Below are positions 1,725 through 17,366 of a stretch of 64,000 nt of DNA, one piece after another. The notes under the pieces were generated by a model. It had not been told where the DNA came from, did no database searches, and saw nothing but the letters and a program-made list of their open reading frames with translations. The position numbers and the translations under genes are program-made. Source of the stretch: Pirellula sp. (GTDB lineage Bacteria; Planctomycetota; Planctomycetia; Pirellulales; Pirellulaceae); the NCBI GenBank assembly GCA_021300155.1, contig JAJTID010000021.1:1-64000 (forward strand), written 5' to 3'. Within the stretch, counting starts at the first letter, position 1; every line of letters begins with the position of its first letter.

Positions 1725-2873
1725 CTACAGCGCAGTGCGAAGTGCGTGGTCCAAGTCTCCCATCAAGTCGGCAGCATCTTCTAATCCGACCGATATTCGG
1801 ATGAGGGAATCGTGTATCCCGAATTTGGCCCTGGCTGCTGCATCGTAGCTTGCGTGCGACATAGATGCGGGTTGTTCGATTAGTGACTCGACGGCCCCCA
1901 AACTCACGGCCAATCCGAACAATTCCGTAGACTCACAGACTTTCTTTGTCTTCAAGTAGTCGCCATCGATTTCGAAAGAAACGACCGCTCCGAAGCGATC
2001 GCCCATCAATCGCGCAGCCAATGCATGTTGAGGATGACTCGCCAAGCCTGGATATAGAACTCGCTTCACCATGGGATGCGATTCAAGCCAAACCGCGATT
2101 TCCAAAGCGGATCGTGACTGCTCACGCATTCGCAAGTCGAGCGTCTTAATGCCACGCTGCAACAGAAAGCATTCTAGCCCCGAGAGTACGGCTCCAGTCG
2201 CGTTTTGAATGAAGTAAAGTTCTTTGTGTAAGGCCGGATCCTTTGCTGCCAAGACTCCCGCCAGACAATCGCTGTGTCCGCTCAAATACTTGGTTGCCGA
2301 GTGCATCACTATATCGGCTCCTAGCTCTAGCGGTCGCATAATGGCGGGAGACGTAAATGTACTGTCGACTCCTAAGAGCGCTCCGTGTTTGTGGGTGATA
2401 TCCGCGATGGCCGAAAGATCGGGTATCGACATCAACGGATTCCCGATGCTCTCGATCCAAACCATCTTGGTGTTCGATTGGAAGGCTGCTTCGAATTGCA
2501 CCAGGTCATCGGCTGGAGCCAATGTGACGGTGATTCCGGCGCGATTGCAAATTTTGTGAAGCAGTCGAAATGTACCGCCGTAGATGTCACTTCCAGCGAC
2601 AATATGATCGCCACTCTTCAACAACATCGTCGCACAATGTGTAGCAGCCATTCCTGATGCGAACGCTAGCGAGCCCGCGGCGCCTTCGAGGTTGGCGATC
2701 GTTCGCTGGACACCCGATCGTGTTGGAGAGCCGCTTCGCGAGTAATCGAAATCTCCCCAAGTACCCGCGCCAGGTTGAATGAAGGTAGTTGCCAAGTGGA
2801 TGGGTGGCACCACGGCACCGGTGGCAGGATCGGGTTCACTGCCAACATGGATTGCTCTTGTTCGAAACTTCAT
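1725..2873 (-). CDS. Trans-sulfuration PLP enzyme (cystathionine gamma-synthase/lyase family)
   Basis: This is a 382-residue fold-type I PLP enzyme of the Cys/Met metabolism family, normal length for the family. The N-terminus has the family signature PPIHLATTF, the tyrosine/arginine phosphate site DYSRSGSPTR, the glycine loop ASGMAA, the PLP aspartate in GVDSTF, and the Schiff-base lysine in SATKYLSGHSD. The C-terminal substrate site appears as VSLGAVESLIEQPASMSHA. The ATG overlaps the TGA of the upstream gene in the sequence ATGA (2870-2873), so the two are translationally coupled. Family members interconvert cysteine, homocysteine and cystathionine. Whether this one is a synthase, gamma-lyase or beta-lyase cannot be read from sequence alone. 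Confidence 0.88.
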   Translation of the reverse strand: MKFRTRAIHVGSEPDPATGAVVPPIHLATTFIQPGAGTWGDFDYSRSGSPTRSGVQRTIANLEGAAGSLAFASGMAATHCATMLLKSGDHIVAGSDIYGGTFRLLHKICNRAGITVTLAPADDLVQFEAAFQSNTKMVWIESIGNPLMSIPDLSAIADITHKHGALLGVDSTFTSPAIMRPLELGADIVMHSATKYLSGHSDCLAGVLAAKDPALHKELYFIQNATGAVLSGLECFLLQRGIKTLDLRMREQSRSALEIAVWLESHPMVKRVLYPGLASHPQHALAARLMGDRFGAVVSFEIDGDYLKTKKVCESTELFGLAVSLGAVESLIEQPASMSHASYDAAARAKFGIHDSLIRISVGLEDAADLMGDLDHALRTAL

Positions 2874-4141
2874 GATTCCAATGCCTGCTTCAAATCTTCA
2901 ATCAAGTCTTCTGTGTCTTCGATTCCGCAGGACATGCGAATCATGTTGTCCGAGATTCCAAATACCGCACGCTCTTCGGGCTTGTAATCAAAGTAGCTCA
3001 TGACGAGCGGTTGTTCGATCAGCGACTCAACGCCTCCCAAGCTTGGAGCGATCCGAGGGATGCGGCATGCATCCACAACTGCGGCCGTTTGTTGCCAATC
3101 CGCATCCTTCACGAGGAATGTGATCAACCCACCGAATCCTTGCATGGTTCGCTTGGCGATGGCATAACTATCGTGCGACTCAAGACCTGGATAGTACACT
3201 TTCTCGATTCGAGGATGTTTCTCTAAAAATTGAGCGATTCGAAGACCGTTCTCATTGTGTCGTTCCATTCGCAGAGCGAAAGTTTTCAAACCTCGTTCTA
3301 GCAAATACATATTGTGCGGCGAATTGATTCCTCCAAGAATTCCTCGCAGTTTGCGAACCGATTCCAATTTCTCTTTAGATCCGCAAATCACACCAGCCAA
3401 TAGATCATTGTGCCCCCCCATGTACTTTGTGGCCGAATGCCAAACATAATCGACTCCATATTCGATGGGTAGAACATTAAAGGGTGTTGCCAACGTTGCG
3501 TCGATCAGTGTTTCGACTCCACGAGATTTGCCGAGTGCAACAAACTGTTCTAGGTCGATGCAAGAGAGGTGCGGGTTCGTGGGCGATTCGCTAACGATCA
3601 TCTTGGTTCGATCATTGATCGCTGCATCCATCGCGTGAAAGTCACCCGTCTTCACTTGTCGTGTGATTACACCAAAGCGGGAAAGGTGCTTCGCACAAAA
3701 CTCTCGGCTTCGGTGGTAGCATTGATCAAAGAAGACGATCTCATCGCCAGCGCTCAACTTCGTCATGAGCAATCCTACGATGGCAGCCATACCGCTCGAA
3801 TAGATAATGGCATCTTCGGCGCGATCGAGGGCAGCAAGCTTTCTTTCGACAACTTTTTCATTGGGGTTACCATAGCGTCCGTACTCGTCGCGATCTTGCT
3901 TTTGCCGAATATAGTCGATGATGGCTTGCGTGGACTCAAACGTATAGGTGCTGCTGCAACAGATCGAATCCGTGATTGCCGCGTTCGGTTTATGCCTTGC
4001 TTCCCCTGCATGAACGCTGGTTGTACTAGCACCTGCACGCCTCACCGAACTTGACGAGACAGCTGTTTCATCCGTACATTGTTTCGATTCCACAGGCAGA
4101 TTATCCGAAGAGTTGTTCGCTAGAGTCGAGGAAGCAGTCAT
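2870..4141 (-). CDS. Cystathionine gamma-synthase-like PLP enzyme, plant-like
   Basis: 423 residues, longer than its neighbour because of a Ser/Thr-rich N-terminal extension of about 40 residues. The core carries STYTFES, the phosphate site EYGRYGNPNE, the loop YSSGMAA, the aspartate in LIDATLATP and the lysine in SATKYMGGHND. It ends with the substrate region PSLGGVESLIEQPLVMS. The wording of the core resembles plant-type cystathionine gamma-synthases. It is the first gene of a two-gene unit and overlaps the next by four bases. Two paralogues in tandem suggest a division of labour, such as synthase plus lyase, in sulfur amino-acid conversion. No SAM or T-box riboswitch was recognised upstream. 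Confidence 0.85.
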   Translation of the reverse strand: MTASSTLANNSSDNLPVESKQCTDETAVSSSSVRRAGASTTSVHAGEARHKPNAAITDSICCSSTYTFESTQAIIDYIRQKQDRDEYGRYGNPNEKVVERKLAALDRAEDAIIYSSGMAAIVGLLMTKLSAGDEIVFFDQCYHRSREFCAKHLSRFGVITRQVKTGDFHAMDAAINDRTKMIVSESPTNPHLSCIDLEQFVALGKSRGVETLIDATLATPFNVLPIEYGVDYVWHSATKYMGGHNDLLAGVICGSKEKLESVRKLRGILGGINSPHNMYLLERGLKTFALRMERHNENGLRIAQFLEKHPRIEKVYYPGLESHDSYAIAKRTMQGFGGLITFLVKDADWQQTAAVVDACRIPRIAPSLGGVESLIEQPLVMSYFDYKPEERAVFGISDNMIRMSCGIEDTEDLIEDLKQALES

Positions 4142-5922: not shown

Positions 5923-6927
5923 TTACTGGGCGGTGCTATTGGCACCATTGGGAGATGCACCGATCGGAATGTCAAATGGCAACGGGCGAGCTGCACATAA
6001 GAAGCCTTCTGCGAAGAGTCGCTCCTTGAGCAATCGGAATGTCTGGAAGCTATCGGGGTACACCCACGCAGTCACGGTAACGTATTGGTTTCGAAACCTA
6101 GATAGCTCGGTGCTTAAACGTCCCCCTGCCCCCAACGTCTGATCGAGTGATTCCTTCAGCGCGTCTTCTGTAGGGAGGAGAATGAATCGATCGAGCTCCA
6201 CCATTCGTCCCATGCGAGCGCTGACACCATCGCTCATGACTCCTGTTTGGCTCTTGAGGGCATACTTCATGGTAAATCCCCCGATGGGGCCGAGAGTGTT
6301 GGTGATCTTCGACTTTTGAGAGTTGCGTTCTGCCGCGCCTCGAGCCTCGCGTTTCAAGGTCTCGATCAGATCGTTCCAGGGTACGACAGTCACCATGCCA
6401 TTGAGAAGCATTACATGGATTTCCTGACCAAAGACCGTCTTCGCCATTGGGGTCGGAAGATGCTGAAGGATTGCAACCGGAGCGGTTTCATTCGGCAATT
6501 CCCCTTGCTGTTTAAGCAACTCGGCCAGTTGCTTTTCCAGTTCGCTCAGTTCCACATCGACTTCAAACTGTTTTTTCTGTTCGTCATCTAGTTTGCTAAC
6601 TTCTTCTTCTAGAACCGCCTTCGCGATAGTAACTTCATCGATGGTTGCCATACGTTCAGCAGAGCGGTAAGCAAGTTCTCGTTCATAATTGACCAGAGAG
6701 ATTTGCTGGCTATCCAAGTCTTGATCGAGTTGCTGAACCTTCTTGAGTGGGGACTGCAAAGCATCGGTCTGTCCGAGCAGTTCTTTTTCAATGTTCTGTT
6801 TGGCTGTAGAGTAGCTTCTCGCCCCGACGATCACAACCAAGATGATAAGAATGCCAACCAAGTTTGCGATTGTATCGAGAAAGCAATCTTCTCCAATTGC
6901 TGAATCGTCCGTATGTCGTCGTCCCAC
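5923..6927 (-). CDS. ExbD-like single-pass membrane protein with transmembrane Asp
   Basis: 334 residues. The N-terminus has one hydrophobic helix (about 15-40) entered by DCFLDTIANLVGILIILVV. FLDT aligns naturally with the FIDV of ExbD/TolR, making Asp18 the candidate proton-carrying residue. A predicted coiled coil follows (about 45-135, KVQQLDQDLDSQ..., ELSELEKQLAELLKQ), then a globular periplasmic domain with VHVMLLNGMVTVVPW-type strands. It is the last gene of a minus-strand trio: ExbB-like channel, second ExbD-position protein, this protein (25-base gap). By analogy with ExbB/ExbD, TolQ/R and MotA/B it should be the moving or peptidoglycan-side subunit. The cellular task is unknown. Confidence 0.6.
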   Translation of the reverse strand: MGRRHTDDSAIGEDCFLDTIANLVGILIILVVIVGARSYSTAKQNIEKELLGQTDALQSPLKKVQQLDQDLDSQQISLVNYERELAYRSAERMATIDEVTIAKAVLEEEVSKLDDEQKKQFEVDVELSELEKQLAELLKQQGELPNETAPVAILQHLPTPMAKTVFGQEIHVMLLNGMVTVVPWNDLIETLKREARGAAERNSQKSKITNTLGPIGGFTMKYALKSQTGVMSDGVSARMGRMVELDRFILLPTEDALKESLDQTLGAGGRLSTELSRFRNQYVTVTAWVYPDSFQTFRLLKERLFAEGFLCAARPLPFDIPIGASPNGANSTAQ

Positions 6928-6952
6928 AATGGTTGTTCCTAGTGCTCAAGCG

Positions 6953-8986
6953 TTATCGTGGAATCGTGAGAGGCACTTTTTGCAATTCAACGCCACTACC
7001 CTCTAGGAGTCTCTCAAGCATGGCGACACTCTGCTGAGCATCGCTCGCAGCCTGAATTTCGACCACAGGCACCCAATAACCGCCCAAGACCGCGGTGTCC
7101 CAAGACTGAACGCGTTGTTGAATGGCCGAGGCAAGCTCTTTGGAGCATTGCTTTGCTCCATTGTCCAGCAATATCACGACTTGGAATTCACGAGCATTGT
7201 CTTGCGAGCGAATGAACCATTTGTTCTTGATGGCAACGATTTGAATCGTTCGGCGCATCGGCGTCGCTTTGTTCTGGGACTTTGTCTGAGCCCAATCTTG
7301 CCCCGCTTCTACGGAAATCGGTTTCAAATCCCCTTCCGGCTTGACATATCTGGGTTGATCTTTGCTTCCAAGGTTCATCGAGATATTGGGAGTTCCATTT
7401 TGATTTTGTGGATCATTCGGGTCAGTAGAAGCATTAGAGGATTGCCCCGTGAGTGAGCTACTGCCGATGCCTCCCGCGCTGGACGGATTCGATTGCGACG
7501 GAGCAGCGTTTGAGAATGAAGACGCAGTGCCCGAAGATGAACTCGTAGCAGCCCCCTGTTCGCTTCCTTCTTGTCCGCTACCTTGTCCGACTCCGGTTTG
7601 CCCATTTCCTGTTTGCGCGATTCCTGCTAGAGAATTTGTGGCCTGTGGAATTCCAGCTTGCCCGAAAGAGGATTGGTTATTGCCCAGGTTTCCGCCGCTG
7701 AAAGATTGCTCAGCATTGGTTGGAGGAGAGTGATTGATACCAGCACTAGCCGACTCACCATTCAAAGGGGACTGTGCAGCAACGATGGGATAGCCTGGCG
7801 GTGCACTTTGGAATTGTTGTGGCGTTCCGGCCATCGCATTCTGCAATGGAGTTTCGCCAGAGAATCGAGCTTGGGAATCAGGCGTACCGTTACTGTAGAC
7901 CTTAGGGATTGTGTATGGTGATTCATCCGCACCGCCCTCCATGGGCTGAACCATGCTCCATTCATTCCCTTCCTTCAACCCTTCGCCGGGGCGACTCCGT
8001 GTGTTCGAGGGGTTGGTACCCAGGTTGGACGAAGATGGCGATTCGTTCCATTCATCATCGGAAAATTCGTACTTCTTCGCCAACGTGGGATTCGCAGCCA
8101 ACAATGCTTGCTGACGTTGTTTTGCATTCGCGACCACTTGTTGCAGCGACTCTTTCAAGCCTGGAATCCCGCTCGGAAAAGCAAGATCCATCTTATCATC
8201 GATCAGTTCATAACCGAATTGGTCGTCCCAACCTGACATGGAACGAGTGGCCAACGCATAGGCTTCGATTCCATCAGGCCGAACGAGGAGCAACGGGTAG
8301 GGTGGTTGTGTAATCCCGATCTTGGAATCATGTTCGCTGTAGGCATTGCGCAACATTCGCAATGCAGTAGCCAGCGGATTTCCTGGTCCGGTTGGAATGA
8401 GATCACGGTGTGTTAATGCGATACCCTCGGGTTGCAACACAACACCGTCTCGGTTGCATTCGATATAAATCGGGCGACGATTGGTCCCATTCCTACCAGA
8501 GTAAGGAATGATCGCAAATGCTGGCTTTGTTTTCTTTTTCTTTTCGATCTCTTCCGCTATCTTCTTTTTCTTCTCATCAATTTCGGTTTCGAGCGCTTTC
8601 AGTCGTTCGGTTTTGGAATCGATACCTTGATCGATGGTCTCATTTTTGTTTTGAAAATTCTTGAGATTCGCAACTAACGATTCGAGCTCGGAATTGAGTC
8701 GTTGGATATGATCCTCGATATCCTGAAGTTCACGTCGCCGATTTTCGATCTTCTTTTTGAGTTCTTCTCGCTGGTTCTCTAGTTCCTCCGAGAACGCTTG
8801 GGCTAGATTCCTCTGATCTTTTGCGGCCAGCAATGCAACCTCAGCTTCGCGTTTTGCAGATGCGTGAGAGTTGGTTACGGTGATCGCTAGCAAGAGCACT
8901 AACGCACCGATAGTACACAGGAGCACTGCCAAAAATGGAAACAATGCTGGCGCCAGATTATCGCTTCGGCGCTTTCGGCGGCTCAT
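6953..8986 (-). CDS. ExbD-position membrane protein with long low-complexity linker
   Basis: I start at the ATG at 8986, which overlaps the stop of the ExbB-like gene as ATGA; the open frame upstream of it is unlikely to be translated. About 677 residues. One transmembrane helix (about 13-35, LFPFLAVLLCTIGALVLLL) is followed by a strong coiled coil (about 40-135, rich in Glu/Lys), a folded region (about 140-275), a long Ser/Gly/Asn/Gln/Pro-rich linker (about 320-560) and a C-terminal folded domain (about 575-675) that includes FQVVILLDNG. Unlike its partner at 5923 the helix has no acidic residue. It probably reaches through the periplasm towards the envelope. Confidence 0.6.
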   Translation of the reverse strand: MSRRKRRSDNLAPALFPFLAVLLCTIGALVLLLAITVTNSHASAKREAEVALLAAKDQRNLAQAFSEELENQREELKKKIENRRRELQDIEDHIQRLNSELESLVANLKNFQNKNETIDQGIDSKTERLKALETEIDEKKKKIAEEIEKKKKTKPAFAIIPYSGRNGTNRRPIYIECNRDGVVLQPEGIALTHRDLIPTGPGNPLATALRMLRNAYSEHDSKIGITQPPYPLLLVRPDGIEAYALATRSMSGWDDQFGYELIDDKMDLAFPSGIPGLKESLQQVVANAKQRQQALLAANPTLAKKYEFSDDEWNESPSSSNLGTNPSNTRSRPGEGLKEGNEWSMVQPMEGGADESPYTIPKVYSNGTPDSQARFSGETPLQNAMAGTPQQFQSAPPGYPIVAAQSPLNGESASAGINHSPPTNAEQSFSGGNLGNNQSSFGQAGIPQATNSLAGIAQTGNGQTGVGQGSGQEGSEQGAATSSSSGTASSFSNAAPSQSNPSSAGGIGSSSLTGQSSNASTDPNDPQNQNGTPNISMNLGSKDQPRYVKPEGDLKPISVEAGQDWAQTKSQNKATPMRRTIQIVAIKNKWFIRSQDNAREFQVVILLDNGAKQCSKELASAIQQRVQSWDTAVLGGYWVPVVEIQAASDAQQSVAMLERLLEGSGVELQKVPLTIPR

Positions 8987-10575
8987 CCCGCTTTCCTCTT
9001 GATAGGGATAATAGCCGGTTCTTGGTGTTCGGACCGATCGTCGTTCTTCTCGTCTGCGTCGAGGCGTCTTCGAACCGGCTGTCGACCAAGATATCCATAA
9101 CGTTCCATTTGCGTTCCGAGTACAGCTACCGCTTCGGTCAAGCAAATAGCAGCATCATGAAAACGGTCGATGTCGGTAAGCTTTCTCAGAGTTGACTGAA
9201 GCGGCTCTTCCATCGATTTAACCAACTCCGACTGTTCAATCAACTGATGTAGCAACTCTGTTTGATTTGCATTTTCGCGTTGTTGAACCAACATCGCTTT
9301 CGATTGTTCTGAAATCGTGTGTTGCCACTCTTGAATACGGGTGTCGATAGAATCCACTTCACGCGCGTGCAAACTTGCGATTTTCTCGTGATGATCGAGC
9401 AATGATTTTTGTGTCGACTCTACAACTCGGGTCAATGCAAGCGATAACTCTTCACTCAACTGTACCGAAGTCTTTTCGTGATTGGTTGACCAAGTCGTCA
9501 TCTTTTCATGATGGTCCAACAATGACTTGTGAGTTGACTCTACAGCATTGGTCAAAACTTTGGCCAAGGTTTCACTCAACTGGGCAGAGGAATTCTCTTG
9601 AATGGCCAACCACCTAGACTCCGCGGTCTTCATCGATTGTTGCCAAAGCTCAGACTGCTTCTGGACCAAATGCTCCATCGAAAGCAGAATGCCTTCGCCA
9701 ACAACTTTCAGCGAGTCGCGAATATTCGACAAATCTGGCATCTCAGTTTTTTGGATCACACAAGAACTGATGAGATCCGATGTATGTCGATCAATCTCTC
9801 CAAGGAGTTTGACTTCCGATTTGTTGACAGCAAACTGAAAGAACATGACAGCCATCGTCAGAATCAATCCGATCGCAGTCGTATCAAATGCAACGTACAG
9901 TCCAGCAGTCAGACCATTCATTGCATCTTGCGAACCACTAGCCAACGCAGAAGCGTCCATTTGGCCCAATGTTTCGGAGATCCCCAGGACGGTCCCGAGA
10001 AAACCGAGCATTGGCATAGCCCAGGTGAGAATCCTCACCAACGCATAGCTGTCGTGCTGAAGATCCGCGTCGCGTTCAGCGGCGATTCGAATGTCCTCAT
10101 CCAATTGCTCCATCGACTGACGGCGGATTTGCGATGCCAGGATGTCCCGAATTCGTTGTCCGAACCAACTCTGAAATACCGCCGTGGACTGAGTCTTCCA
10201 AGCGGACTGAAGCCATTGTGTTTGCGTGTTTGGATCAGTGATCAATTCATCGTTGCGTGCAATCTTGATTTCATCAATTGCAGCCTTAGCCAGTCCCATC
10301 AAGCGAATCTGTCTAGAAGACTCGAGAAGCTTGTAGACCAAAGCGCAGAGTGAGATGAAGAACAACTCTACGGTTGCGTAAGCAACAGCGTGACACTTGG
10401 AGTATCTTTCCAAGAGGGGCAGTGAAACCGGACCATATTGCAAAAGTGCGTAGTAGCCAACGCAAAGCAACGTCCCCATCACCACCGACCAAAAGATCGG
10501 AGCTTGATAGTTTCCTAAAGGTTGTCGAAACTTCCTGAGCACTTTGTCTAACGCCCGCTTCTGCAATAATAGCAT
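8983..10575 (-). CDS. MotA/TolQ/ExbB-type proton channel protein with coiled-coil tail
   Basis: 530 residues. Hydrophobic helices lie at about 25-47 and 66-87. The two signature ExbB helices follow at about 180-205 (MPMLGFLGTVLGISETLG) and 220-250 (FDTTAIGLILTMAVMFFQF). GFLGTVLGI and TTAIGL are the hallmark channel motifs, including the threonine beside the ExbD aspartate. After residue 255 the protein carries a cytoplasmic helical tail of about 250 residues with a near-duplicated segment (VESTHKSLLDHHEK and VESTQKSLLDHHEK). Such a long tail is absent from ExbB but resembles ZorA-like and some planctomycete proteins. It is the first gene of the trio and overlaps the next by four bases. Confidence 0.8.
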   Translation of the reverse strand: MLLLQKRALDKVLRKFRQPLGNYQAPIFWSVVMGTLLCVGYYALLQYGPVSLPLLERYSKCHAVAYATVELFFISLCALVYKLLESSRQIRLMGLAKAAIDEIKIARNDELITDPNTQTQWLQSAWKTQSTAVFQSWFGQRIRDILASQIRRQSMEQLDEDIRIAAERDADLQHDSYALVRILTWAMPMLGFLGTVLGISETLGQMDASALASGSQDAMNGLTAGLYVAFDTTAIGLILTMAVMFFQFAVNKSEVKLLGEIDRHTSDLISSCVIQKTEMPDLSNIRDSLKVVGEGILLSMEHLVQKQSELWQQSMKTAESRWLAIQENSSAQLSETLAKVLTNAVESTHKSLLDHHEKMTTWSTNHEKTSVQLSEELSLALTRVVESTQKSLLDHHEKIASLHAREVDSIDTRIQEWQHTISEQSKAMLVQQRENANQTELLHQLIEQSELVKSMEEPLQSTLRKLTDIDRFHDAAICLTEAVAVLGTQMERYGYLGRQPVRRRLDADEKNDDRSEHQEPAIIPIKRKAG

Positions 10576-13787: not shown

Positions 13788-16700
13788 ATGAAAAACCTCC
13801 AAGAGATCGCGCGCCGCGTGCGCCGTCCTGAAGAACAACTTCGTTTCCCTTGTGAACTGCTACAGCAAGGGTACGAACCAAATTATCTGGCAAACTATAG
13901 GCCGGATGAACTCGCAAACTTCGATGAGCCAACTCTATCCAAGTTAAAGCGAATTCTGATGCAATTCGATGCGATCGAAAAGCACCGCGCGAAGATATTG
14001 GCTTCGCTCGAGAAAGAGTCGCTCACTGGCGAAACTATCAAAGAAGTCGTCAATCAAGCGAGCTCGATCGCGCAAATCGATACAACATTGCGACACGCGC
14101 GTGCTCGCAAAAATGCCAAGAGCATCGCAGAGAAATGTCCTGCCGCCCAAGTGCTGGGACAAACGATTCTCACCATGCAAGGCGAAACACCGGCTGACAT
14201 TCCTGCTTGGGTTTGCCAAGTCGCTGGTATTACACCCGACCAGGTTGACGATGTCCTATTGCAAACAAAGACATGGCTCACGCACATGCTTTGTGAGGAT
14301 CTTCGATTGATGAGCGAGTTGCAGCAGTATGTGTTGCGACGAGCTACCGTCTCTGTGAAGGTATTACCCGAACCTCCCAAAGGTAGCGATGCAGAAAAGA
14401 GACTCGATGCATCGGAAGATTCTTCGGTAGTCCCTGTCGAGTCGTTGACGCCTGCCGTTGCATCAAACGATACAACAACGCCTGTTCCGACACCGGAAAT
14501 CGCCAATGTATCCGGTGAATCGGTTGCGCAGGATTCGTCTACGGAAATCGCAGCCAGCGGTGATGCATCGAATGGTGTGGATAGCTCCGTCACGACTGAA
14601 ACCAATTTAGAAACGGAAACCAATTTAGAAATTGACGCGACCAAGGATGCGGAAGTCGCTCCGTTGATTGCTGAGTTCAATCAAGGCAAGAAAACTTCAA
14701 AGCCGATCAAGACGAAGAGCTTGTCTGAGAAACAGCTATCCCCGCGCCAAAGGCGTCGTCGATGGCTTCGAAGCATTCTCGAATCCTACGCTCGCCTAAA
14801 AAAACCGGTCGGCAACGTCACTCCTTATCAAATATTGATGCTGGCACGAGGACTCCGTTCGCAAATCATTCAGCTCAATTTTGATTACGACAAGAAGCCG
14901 CTGATTCAGTTGTGCCGTGACGCTCTTTGCCCAGGGCGCCATCCCTTGCATAGTTTCTTGATGGATGTTGCCGAGTCCGCGTTGACCAGCTTCTTGCTAC
15001 CGCGTGCACACCAGGACGTTCTGGCAATCCTGGAAGAGTATGCAAACGAAGAGCTGACAGAAGCAGCCGTTGCGCACCTGCACACTTCGTTATTGCAACG
15101 TCCTATCGTCGGCCATCGCATTTTGGTGATCGATTCGATTGGCCCGAAGATGGCGGCGGCGGCTATTGTTGATGCCGATGGCAAGGTGATCTTTACCGGT
15201 GAAATTCCATGCAATAGCAACCGAGCAGACATTGTCGCTCAAAACGTTGTCTTGCTAGGGCAATGGATCCATGAGCATCGCGTAACGCTGCTGTCTTTGT
15301 CCAATGGTCCCGCGCGTCGCTACTTGATTCAGCCTATCGCGGAACTGCTAAAGCAATCGAACGAAGGTTCCATTTTCTGGACGATGGTCGATCGAGCGGG
15401 TGCCGATGGATATTGCAATTCTCGTATCTGCTTGGCAGAGCTGCCGAACATTTCGCGACGTCACCGTGCCGCAGTTTGGCTGGCTCGTCGATTGCAGGAT
15501 CCTTTGAAGCAAGTGCTTAAAGTCGATCCTTCTCGTCTTCGATTGGGCTCGTACCAAAGAGAGCTTCCGCAAGCAGATCTTGAAATCGCACTCCGTGACG
15601 CTGTCTCCGCTGCTATCTCGACCTCGGGGCTGGATATTTTCCATTCGGAGCCCGAAGTCCTACAACGCGTTCCTGGCATGACACTGGCGGCAGCAAAGGC
15701 CGTTGTCGAAGGGTGCAGAAGTGAGAAGATTTCGAATCGCGAAACATTGCTTGCTGTGCTCAAAGAACATCTGAGTGAAATGCAAGCGAGACAAGCGATC
15801 GGCTTTTTGCGTGTATACGGAAGCACACAACCATTAGACGCAACATCGATTCATCCCGATGACTATCGGCTAGCCGAACGCTTGATCGAGCATGCAAAAC
15901 TGCCAGTTCCACCCGCATCGCCAGAGGGGTGGAGCAAACCGAACTTCAAAGCCCTCGCAGAAGTGAACGCGGCAGCAGAAGCAGCATTTGCAAAACAACA
16001 GTCCGAGTTCGGTGCTTCGCTGGACGAAATGCATAGCGATGAGATGCATTCGGAAGAAGAACAATCGGAATCCAGCCAGGATGGATCGCATGTGATAGCC
16101 GCTTCCGACGAGCAATCGGCAGCCGCTACTGAAGAAATCTCTGCAGCCCCCGTGGAGCCGTTTGGTGCCGAAAGTGCCACCGACGCCGAAGGCAGCAAAC
16201 CAATCGACAACAGTTCCGACACCGCACTGTCCGACGGAACGACCATCGAGGCTTCGGCAAATCTAGAAAACGCTCCAACAGAAACAACTTCGTCGGTTCC
16301 CGTGGCGGCTGTCAATCCACACATGCCTGTCATTCAAACGCAACCAAGTGTTCGCACGCCACTGTCGATTGATGTGGAACGGTTGGCCAGAAGCTGGCAA
16401 GTCGGACGCGAAAAGATGAAGAGAGTCGCGAACTGCTTGCAATTCCCATTTGCTGACGAACGTGAGTTCCAATTCCCGATTCCATTGGTTGGAAAGTTTC
16501 CACGGCTGGATACGATCCGTCCGGGGGATATGGTCCAAGCGTTGGTGGTTGGCGTGACCGACTTTGGCGTGTTTGCCGATTTAGGCCCGGATTGCGGGGG
16601 ATTGATTCACATCAGCCGACTCACCACGGACTACGTGGAGGACCCACACCAATATGTTCAAATGGGCGACCTCTTGACGGTTTGGGTGCTGCATGTGGAC

Positions 16701-17366
16701 GAAAAGAAAAAACGCGTCGCACTGACAGCCATTCCTCCCGGTACTCCAACGCGTCGTGATATGCAGTCTACTGAACAGGGAGAACAACGCGGCGATCGTC
16801 GAGGTGGAGGCGAAAGACGTCCGGACAACAGAAGCGAAAATCGTAACGACGGACGATCCGACAACCGCGCTCGACCAGCGAGAGCAGACTCAGGAGCACC
16901 TTCTCTGAATCGCTCTTCGGGTGATCGACCAAGCGGTGGCGATCGAGCCGATAACCGCGGGCCGTCCAAGTTTGCTGGAAATCAAGGTGGAAGACCCTCA
17001 AGCGGCGGACGAAATGATCGCGGACGCAACGACCGAGGCAGGAATGATCGTGGTCGAGGGCGTGACGAGGATCGCGACTCCGGTTCGAGAAGACCGACAC
17101 GCGTCGAGCCTCCAAAGCCAGTCACTCCACTCACCGAAGGAATGCAGCAAGGAAAAGAACCATTGCGTTCATTCTCCGATCTTATGCAGTTCATGAAGAA
17201 GAAACCGGAAACAGAAATCATTCCTGAAGGGAACTCTTCAAATAGCGGAGCAACCGGCGAAGAAGTTCGAGTGGAATCTCCACGGGCAGATCAACCATCT
17301 CCCGAGCGAAATGATTCCCCTATCGAATCCGAACCAAACAACACTCATAACGGGCCGTCAGCTTAA
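13788..17366 (+). CDS. Tex-like protein: YqgF/RuvC-like, helix-hairpin-helix and S1 domains plus RGG-like tail
   Basis: 1192 residues. An N-terminal helical part (about 1-215) and an acidic Thr/Ser-rich spacer come first. Then come a helical Tex-like region (about 325-440), a RuvC-like nuclease fold (about 445-600, starting ILVIDSIGPKMAAAAIVDADG), helix-hairpin-helix (VLQRVPGMTLAAAKAVVEG) and a second disordered acidic spacer. An S1 RNA-binding domain sits near 905-980 (GDMVQALVVGVTDFGVFADLG, IHISRL), and the tail is rich in Arg/Gly/Asp/Asn with repeats of NDRGR. Tex proteins bind nucleic acid and affect transcription and RNA fate. This one is about 400 residues longer than bacterial Tex because of the spacers and tail. 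Confidence 0.75.
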   Translation: MKNLQEIARRVRRPEEQLRFPCELLQQGYEPNYLANYRPDELANFDEPTLSKLKRILMQFDAIEKHRAKILASLEKESLTGETIKEVVNQASSIAQIDTTLRHARARKNAKSIAEKCPAAQVLGQTILTMQGETPADIPAWVCQVAGITPDQVDDVLLQTKTWLTHMLCEDLRLMSELQQYVLRRATVSVKVLPEPPKGSDAEKRLDASEDSSVVPVESLTPAVASNDTTTPVPTPEIANVSGESVAQDSSTEIAASGDASNGVDSSVTTETNLETETNLEIDATKDAEVAPLIAEFNQGKKTSKPIKTKSLSEKQLSPRQRRRRWLRSILESYARLKKPVGNVTPYQILMLARGLRSQIIQLNFDYDKKPLIQLCRDALCPGRHPLHSFLMDVAESALTSFLLPRAHQDVLAILEEYANEELTEAAVAHLHTSLLQRPIVGHRILVIDSIGPKMAAAAIVDADGKVIFTGEIPCNSNRADIVAQNVVLLGQWIHEHRVTLLSLSNGPARRYLIQPIAELLKQSNEGSIFWTMVDRAGADGYCNSRICLAELPNISRRHRAAVWLARRLQDPLKQVLKVDPSRLRLGSYQRELPQADLEIALRDAVSAAISTSGLDIFHSEPEVLQRVPGMTLAAAKAVVEGCRSEKISNRETLLAVLKEHLSEMQARQAIGFLRVYGSTQPLDATSIHPDDYRLAERLIEHAKLPVPPASPEGWSKPNFKALAEVNAAAEAAFAKQQSEFGASLDEMHSDEMHSEEEQSESSQDGSHVIAASDEQSAAATEEISAAPVEPFGAESATDAEGSKPIDNSSDTALSDGTTIEASANLENAPTETTSSVPVAAVNPHMPVIQTQPSVRTPLSIDVERLARSWQVGREKMKRVANCLQFPFADEREFQFPIPLVGKFPRLDTIRPGDMVQALVVGVTDFGVFADLGPDCGGLIHISRLTTDYVEDPHQYVQMGDLLTVWVLHVDEKKKRVALTAIPPGTPTRRDMQSTEQGEQRGDRRGGGERRPDNRSENRNDGRSDNRARPARADSGAPSLNRSSGDRPSGGDRADNRGPSKFAGNQGGRPSSGGRNDRGRNDRGRNDRGRGRDEDRDSGSRRPTRVEPPKPVTPLTEGMQQGKEPLRSFSDLMQFMKKKPETEIIPEGNSSNSGATGEEVRVESPRADQPSPERNDSPIESEPNNTHNGPSA
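14598..14633 (+). repeat. 18-bp in-frame tandem duplication in the Tex-like gene
   Basis: Units at 14598-14615 and 14616-14633 share gaaaccaatttagaaa and encode ETNLET then ETNLEI in the disordered spacer. The frame is kept, so this is a tolerated slippage event. Confidence 0.8.

Follow-up and report, generated by a model that had tools for sequence, protein, structure and literature searches.

A three-gene cluster of the Pirellulales that may encode an ion-driven motor with two unlike axle proteins

Gene cluster and helix residues

We analyzed a 64,000-nucleotide stretch of Pirellula sp. DNA (GenBank assembly GCA_021300155.1, contig JAJTID010000021.1, positions 1 to 64,000 of the forward strand; hereafter the window) for a cluster of three genes, here called A, B1, and B2. 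A encodes a ring protein of the MotA/TolQ/ExbB type, and B1 and B2 each encode a protein with a single membrane helix in the gene position of a motor axle. A first-pass annotation of the window, made from its sequence alone, had described three clustered minus-strand open reading frames (ORFs), a B1 helix without an acidic residue, and a B2 helix reading FLDT (the Asp being Asp18), all of which we confirmed. The three genes and the two helix codons on which the analysis turns are as follows.

8983-10575, minus strand: A, MotA/TolQ/ExbB-type ring protein of 530 amino acids, identified by Pfam and by its orthologues; a C-terminal tail of about 280 residues, read from the sequence, follows the last hydrophobic segment
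6953-8986, minus strand: B1, axle-position protein of 677 amino acids without a helix acid; short N terminus, one membrane helix, coiled coil, domain at about residues 157-263, Ser/Gly-rich linker, and C-terminal region
5923-6927, minus strand: B2, acid-bearing axle-position protein of 334 amino acids with a GTG start; one membrane helix, long coiled coil, and C-terminal domain
8927-8929, minus strand: codon of B1 Ala20, at the Asp position of ExbD/TolR/MotB according to hhalign with B2
6874-6876, minus strand: codon of B2 Asp18, the predicted ion-binding acid

Four bases (ATGA) are shared by A and B1, and a gap of 25 bases separates B1 from B2. The start of A may instead be a GTG at 10542, 11 codons downstream, where the mechanically called ORF of its closest relative begins. 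That relative is an uncultured Pirellula bin whose A is about 90% identical; it is the closest named one found, and a scan of named genomes with A returned it alone. A scores 48.2 bits against Pfam MotA_ExbB (PF01618), for which the cut-off is 22.9, and belongs to that family. Both pore threonines are present, Thr195 of A aligning with TolQ Thr145 and Thr233 with TolQ Thr178 in a profile alignment.

The B1 helix, FPFLAVLLCTIGALVLLLAI, begins at residue 16 and contains no acidic residue. B1 reads FPFLAVLLC here, of which PFLAVLL resembles the TolR motif with Asp23 replaced; the TolR motif is LLDVLLVLLL and contains Asp23 (PMC12583513). When the family profiles of B1 and B2 were compared by hhalign, they matched with a probability of 96.4% (E 1.2e-9) over a span that takes in the helix and the coiled coil, and B1 Ala20 fell opposite B2 Asp18. 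Judged by the helix acid that marks ExbD and TolR, B2 qualifies with Asp18 and the B1 of the window, with Ala20, does not. As a control, we read the helices of planctomycete ExbD proteins from 30 loci, and Asp was present in all 26 that were readable.

The AlphaFold models of B1 and B2 have mean predicted local distance difference test (pLDDT) values of 82.5 (the first 311 residues of B1) and 80.9 (B2), and each has a long helix at its N terminus, additional helices, and a mixed domain at its C terminus. Among 1000 chains compared with the B1 domain at residues 157-263, TolR, ExbD, and a second ExbD ranked 1, 4, and 5 (Z 6.1, 5.5, and 5.3). The root mean square deviation of the fit was 5.2 over 88 aligned residues for TolR, and 3.8 over 86 and 2.7 over 71 for the two ExbD chains, a modeled likeness that is suggestive only. 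Structure comparison with the B2 model returned no TolR or ExbD row, and Foldseek gave no PDB match at E <=0.001 for either model. When the B1 and B2 profiles were searched against the sequences of solved structures, most hits were coiled-coil proteins. Membership of B1 and B2 in ExbD by sequence was rejected, there being no ExbD model among the Pfam matches listed and no profile match, and neither protein is filed as ExbD because direct profile comparison with ExbD failed.

Conservation across the order

Of 60 genomes of the order, counting that of the window, 56 gave a B2 match. Among 294 genomes of the phylum, strong matches to both B1 and B2 were found in 19 of the 20 other genomes of the same class, namely 4 of the order and 15 of 16 from family f21, the one family to which all sampled class genomes outside the order belong; outside the class, the B1 and B2 matches were weak only (<70 bits). 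These phylum searches scored at most seven candidates per genome. A conserved three-gene order, which the first-pass annotation had suggested looking for, was borne out in that A-B1-B2 recurs within the order and in this second family of the class, and the 4-base overlap of A and B1 is found in 53 of 77 pairs that share a locus and strand. Since the gene order recurs so, the arrangement is more than chance.

The loci that we read were compiled into a table of 102 genomes. B1 was readable in 95 of these, with Ala at residue 20 in 73, Asp in 19, and Glu, Ser, and Thr in 1 each, so that a helix acid is absent from 75 genomes and present in 20. At the position of B2 Asp18, Asp was found in 82/82 readable rows, one of them (G466) scored from its proper ORF; the remaining 3 of 85 rows (G025, G031, and G039) are without that stretch. 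One B protein with a helix acid and one without is a real and widely kept state.

The same table bears on two predictions made in the annotation. Under the first, both B genes should always occur together; both were found in 80 genomes, only B1 in 15, and only B2 in 5, most of the latter two groups being genomes with a short contig or a short stretch read. The second, that only one B protein keeps the acid, stands for B2 throughout and for B1 in 75/95 genomes, and it falls in the other 20, 19 of which carry the variant ring protein described below. B1 homologues with a helix acid, which the annotation had named as evidence against itself, were thus found in a part (20/95) of the genomes.

A variant ring protein accompanies acidic B1

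In the first four genomes found to have an acidic B1, no intact A was linked to it, and a variant ring protein, A', was present. An A' profile was searched against 296 genomes of the order, with at most five candidates scored per genome; 20 genomes stand apart at 447 bits or more, with the next at 239, and G016 brings the number to 21. B1 had previously been unread in 16 of the A' genomes, and it proved acidic in 15 of them, the exception being G364, which has Ser. Altogether, 19 of the 21 A' genomes have an acidic B1; the other two have Ser (G364) and Ala (G022). A' was not found in 74 genomes, all searched with the A' profile, and B1 is acidic in 1 of these (G390).

The old A was not found beside B1 in 12 of the 21 A' genomes; it is decayed in 8 and intact in 1 (G022). 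Among the 12, the A profile was run against the whole genome for three (G037, G053, and G054), and for the other nine the search covered the stretches around A' and B1. Each of the eight decayed, linked A genes has lost both pore threonines. G022 holds both rings (L065 and L245). In its own A, Leu replaces Pro188 and Arg replaces Gly198, two residues that are each otherwise kept in 75/76 intact A. This genome is apparently transitional, with A' present, B1 still Ala, and A as if starting to decay. In G362, all three genes share a strand, and A' precedes B1 and B2 with about 600 bases between it and B1.

Four positions of A bear on the comparison of the two rings.

9991-9993, minus strand: codon of A Thr195, a pore threonine; Thr in 76/76 intact A, 21/21 A', and 0/8 decayed A
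9982-9984, minus strand: codon of A Gly198; Gly in 75/76 A and His in 21/21 A'
9883-9885, minus strand: codon of A Asp231, the ring acid two residues before Thr233; Asp in 75/76 A and Asn in 21/21 A'
9877-9879, minus strand: codon of A Thr233, a pore threonine; Thr in 76/76 intact A, 20/21 A' (one Ser), and 0/8 decayed A

A residue-by-residue comparison of the 76 intact A with the 21 A' proteins, made without the nominal A row of G037 (a paralogue), yielded four near-fixed differences under cut-offs of at least 90% in A and at least 85% in A' in columns at least 70% filled. These are Gly198His, Ile199Phe, and Asp231Asn, each in 21/21 A', and Ala234Thr in 19/21, and all four adjoin the pore threonines.

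When the 536 columns of B1 were ranked by association with A', residue 20 came first (p 3e-18, uncorrected for kinship) and Pro17 second (p 7e-11), and the best of 326 B2 columns reached 2.5e-5; each value is the best of 24 residue classes in its column, a choice left uncorrected, with G390 left out. Residue 20 is also the only B1 position that differs in all five of the local contrasts that we chose from the tree, a set that leaves out G022, G364, and G390. If G364 is added, the f2 contrast still differs at residue 20, but no longer by an acid alone.

Evolutionary history

Trees of A/A' and of B1 were both built by quick searches with support from the Shimodaira-Hasegawa-like approximate likelihood ratio test (SH-aLRT). 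A' forms one clade (SH-aLRT 100) separate from the A proteins of the same genomes, although the tool warned of long branches meeting where A' joins other families. Several host groups mix acidic and non-acidic B1; G016, for example, groups with congeners whose B1 has Ala, and G357 and G378 fall beside G049 and G387. Parsimony on the B1 tree, with f21 as the outgroup, reconstructed five gains of the acid and one loss, and all five gains lie in lineages reconstructed with A', which make up 17% of the tree length (chance 1.5e-4). The B1 tree was built with the residue-20 column included, and several of the gain branches are poorly supported.

Neighboring genes and other A-B-B clusters

Pfam searches with the window neighbors of the cluster returned an FGE-sulfatase domain, a DAHP synthase, a Cys/Met pyridoxal phosphate (PLP) enzyme, and a weak secretin-domain match, and one neighbor had no match. 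The commonest extra neighbor family over 72 loci, many of them with short flanks, is an aminotransferase-like gene found at 12. By the same two approaches, Pfam on the window neighbors and family recurrence over the 72 loci, no nuclease or helicase of the Zorya type was seen beside the cluster, in agreement with the first-pass annotation. PADLOC gave no ZorA or ZorB match among the single match of A, the five of B2, and the best 25 of 69 of B1. A Zorya or other defense system was rejected, with no Zorya profile among the matches listed and no widely shared neighbor. A search of PHROGs returned nothing informative.

Two other features of the window were recorded. At 1725-4141 lie two adjacent minus-strand genes that overlap by 4 bases, both resembling PLP enzymes of Cys/Met metabolism (2870-4141 by Pfam, 1725-2873 by eye), and at 13788-17366 there is a 1192-amino-acid ORF whose middle is acidic and of low complexity and whose tail is rich in Arg, Gly, and Asp.

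Another 23 loci (L172-L193 and L093) were inspected for A-B-B clusters of other families. Both B helices were readable in 10 that have an FPF-type B1, and the pair was Ser and Asp in 10/10. FQD-type clusters, one of which lies in the genome of the window, have Asp in both B helices. Acid asymmetry between two B chains is not unique to the A-B1-B2 family described here. Ser stands at the B1 acid position, where it was read, in the A-B-B clusters L172-L181, L184, L186, L192, and L093, and several of their ring proteins start with what appears by eye to be a CxxC-bearing, zinc-ribbon-like segment. Two loci of the window's own genome were also noted. L007 (contig C90, 1066-3337) is a three-gene A-B-B cluster with Glu before the pore threonines of A and Asp in both B helices, and L004 (1003-3155) consists of one ExbB-like gene and, after it, two genes resembling ExbD, each with a helix Asp.

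Interpretation

Taken together, these results suggest that A, B1, and B2 may form the ring and two different axle chains of an ion-driven motor of the 5:2 type, a reading to which we assign a probability of about 0.57. That B1 and B2 sit in one ring, that they do so in a 5:1:1 count, and what topology, proton coupling, and step number the motor would have are points that we infer from sequence. In the standard form, the A ring, with its pore threonines and Asp231, would surround one B1 and one B2; protons would be taken up and released by B2 Asp18 only, and B1 Ala would be permanently neutral at the matching spot. The coiled coils and further domains of B1 and B2 are taken to be periplasmic. 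With one titratable site on the axle, such a motor would therefore consume roughly half the protons per turn that a homodimeric one does, provided the ring Asp is not involved. In the lineages with A', where the ring has Asn and His for Asp and Gly, B1 would have gained an acid, giving a two-site axle. Co-change of B1 residue 20 with the ring protein is what would be expected if B1 sits in the pore. The most far-reaching reading would be a family of 5:1:1 motors that have an obligate heterodimer as axle, one titratable site, and an acid-bearing ring, and that were converted several times to a two-site axle with a retuned ring (Asp231Asn and Gly198His); we hold this tentatively, at slightly below even odds. 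The cellular task might be to apply force across the envelope, which is a guess from the domain layout.

B1 could also do without a place in the pore. A B2 homodimer would then be the axle in A, satisfying the usual 5:2 mechanism, and B1 would be a protein like TonB or TolA whose helix lies outside the ring and which carries force to the outer membrane. Its missing acid would then be ordinary, and its length, Ser/Gly linker, and C-terminal region would suit a force transducer. On the other hand, a significant profile match pairs B1 Ala20 with B2 Asp18, and when B1 does acquire an acid it appears at residue 20, the very column most tied to ring type. Another kind of A-B-B cluster in the phylum has Asp in both B helices, and the best fold matches of B1 include the TolR and ExbD domains. 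We regard this alternative as unlikely, though it deserves to be kept in mind. It is less probable still that B1 and B2 form homodimers in separate A motors, with the B1 form inactive or plugged and serving to tune the number of live motors. The close packing of A, B1, and B2 in one cluster suits it, and the methods used here are blind to hetero- versus homodimeric pairing, but repeated gain of an acid by B1 together with another ring would be needless for a passive decoy. Loss of ion transport altogether, leaving the cluster a structural scaffold in which residue 20 changes freely, would account for the 75/95 genomes whose B1 is without an acid. We consider it very improbable, since both pore threonines are kept in every intact A and the B2 Asp in every readable row, and B1 residue 20 is not free because it is Ala in 72/73 analyzed genomes without A'.

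Several observations weigh against a heterodimeric axle coupled to the ring type. The well-supported (starred) branches of the B1 tree force at least three changes of acid state, where the best tree has six, and supported branches give only 5 independent pairs, of which a mean of 2.9 agree and 0 oppose (sign test, median p 0.25, with too few pairs for significance). G364 and G022 combine A' with Ser and Ala, respectively, and G390 has a B1 Asp with A' not found, in a genome that is 77% complete. For 5/21 A' genomes, B2 lay outside the stretch read. G414 pairs an A that has Asn231 with a B1 that has Ala, and two clusters of another family pair a ring Asn with Ser in B1, because of which the ring acid and the B1 acid are no strict swap. 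A charge-balance rule, under which an acid would stand in the ring or in B1 and never in both, was rejected on these same cases, in which the ring has Asn and B1 is not acidic; the rule also fails for the FQD-type cluster in the window's own genome, where ring, B1, and B2 all bear acids. As to the axle assignment, Pfam gave no ExbD/TolR match (PF02472) among all 3 matches of B2 and the best 25 of 37 of B1, and hhalign against 20 planctomycete ExbD proteins gave a probability of <1% for both. The fold matches of B1 all have Z <8, which according to the comparison tool may reflect merely a common arrangement.

If the heterodimeric reading is right, nature has seemingly compared one-site and two-site motors several times, in what would amount to an evolutionary experiment on the number of ion sites. 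One axle site is naturally missing throughout the order and in a family related to it, and in genomes with a different ring chemistry an acid (once Glu) occupies it. This would provide one-site and two-site motors for comparison as matched sets, the apparently transitional G022, and named residues that could be swapped. Searches that find axle genes by a helix acid or by ExbD profiles can miss such proteins.

Comparison with known motors

In models of 5:2 motors, the axle consists of two identical chains whose acids alternate, with a step of 36 degrees per proton (PMC12583513). Whether doubly protonated or doubly charged intermediates occur is, according to a review, not known for any such motor (PMC9389320). 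TolQR and ExbBD resemble the cluster in the two pore threonines of the ring and in the PxxD or PxxA pattern of the axle helix, and residues 157-263 of B1 bear a weak, suggestive likeness to TolR and ExbD. They differ in that their axle is made of two identical chains, and A has in addition a long C-terminal tail. Replacement of TolR Asp23 by Ala causes death in deoxycholate (PMC12583513); at the matching site of B1, Ala is the natural residue. No OmpA-like peptidoglycan-binding domain of the MotB kind was found among all Pfam matches of B2 or the best 25 of 37 of B1.

The tail of A recalls ZorAB, a 5:2 motor whose ring protein has a long cytoplasmic tail (PMC11890865), but A-B1-B2 is kept through an order and a related family, with no effector gene seen beside it. 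GldLM shows that key acids can be located on the ring (GldL Glu49) and not on the axle, and that a ring acid can be essential (PMC8986121); Glu49 is in this respect comparable to A Asp231. GldM differs in being described as a dimer of one protein (PMC8986121). The sole sequence hint toward GldLM is one A' tail that scores 18.9 bits against the GldM N-terminal domain model, below the cut-off of 25.

The titles and opening lines of abstracts listed by searches of the open-access literature, with subscription papers and preprints mostly uncovered, describe no acid-less axle partner and no coupling of one to a ring change. The arrangement of one A gene with two B genes is already known from AglRQS, the gliding motor of Myxococcus xanthus, which has one MotA homologue and two different MotB homologues and so shares the gene layout. 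Passages of its published description mention neither an acid-less partner nor a coupled ring change, and how the two B proteins pair is left unresolved there (PMC9389320, PMC9120999). Its two MotB homologues have nonetheless been proposed to be, perhaps, two coupled subunits of one motor (PMC9120999).

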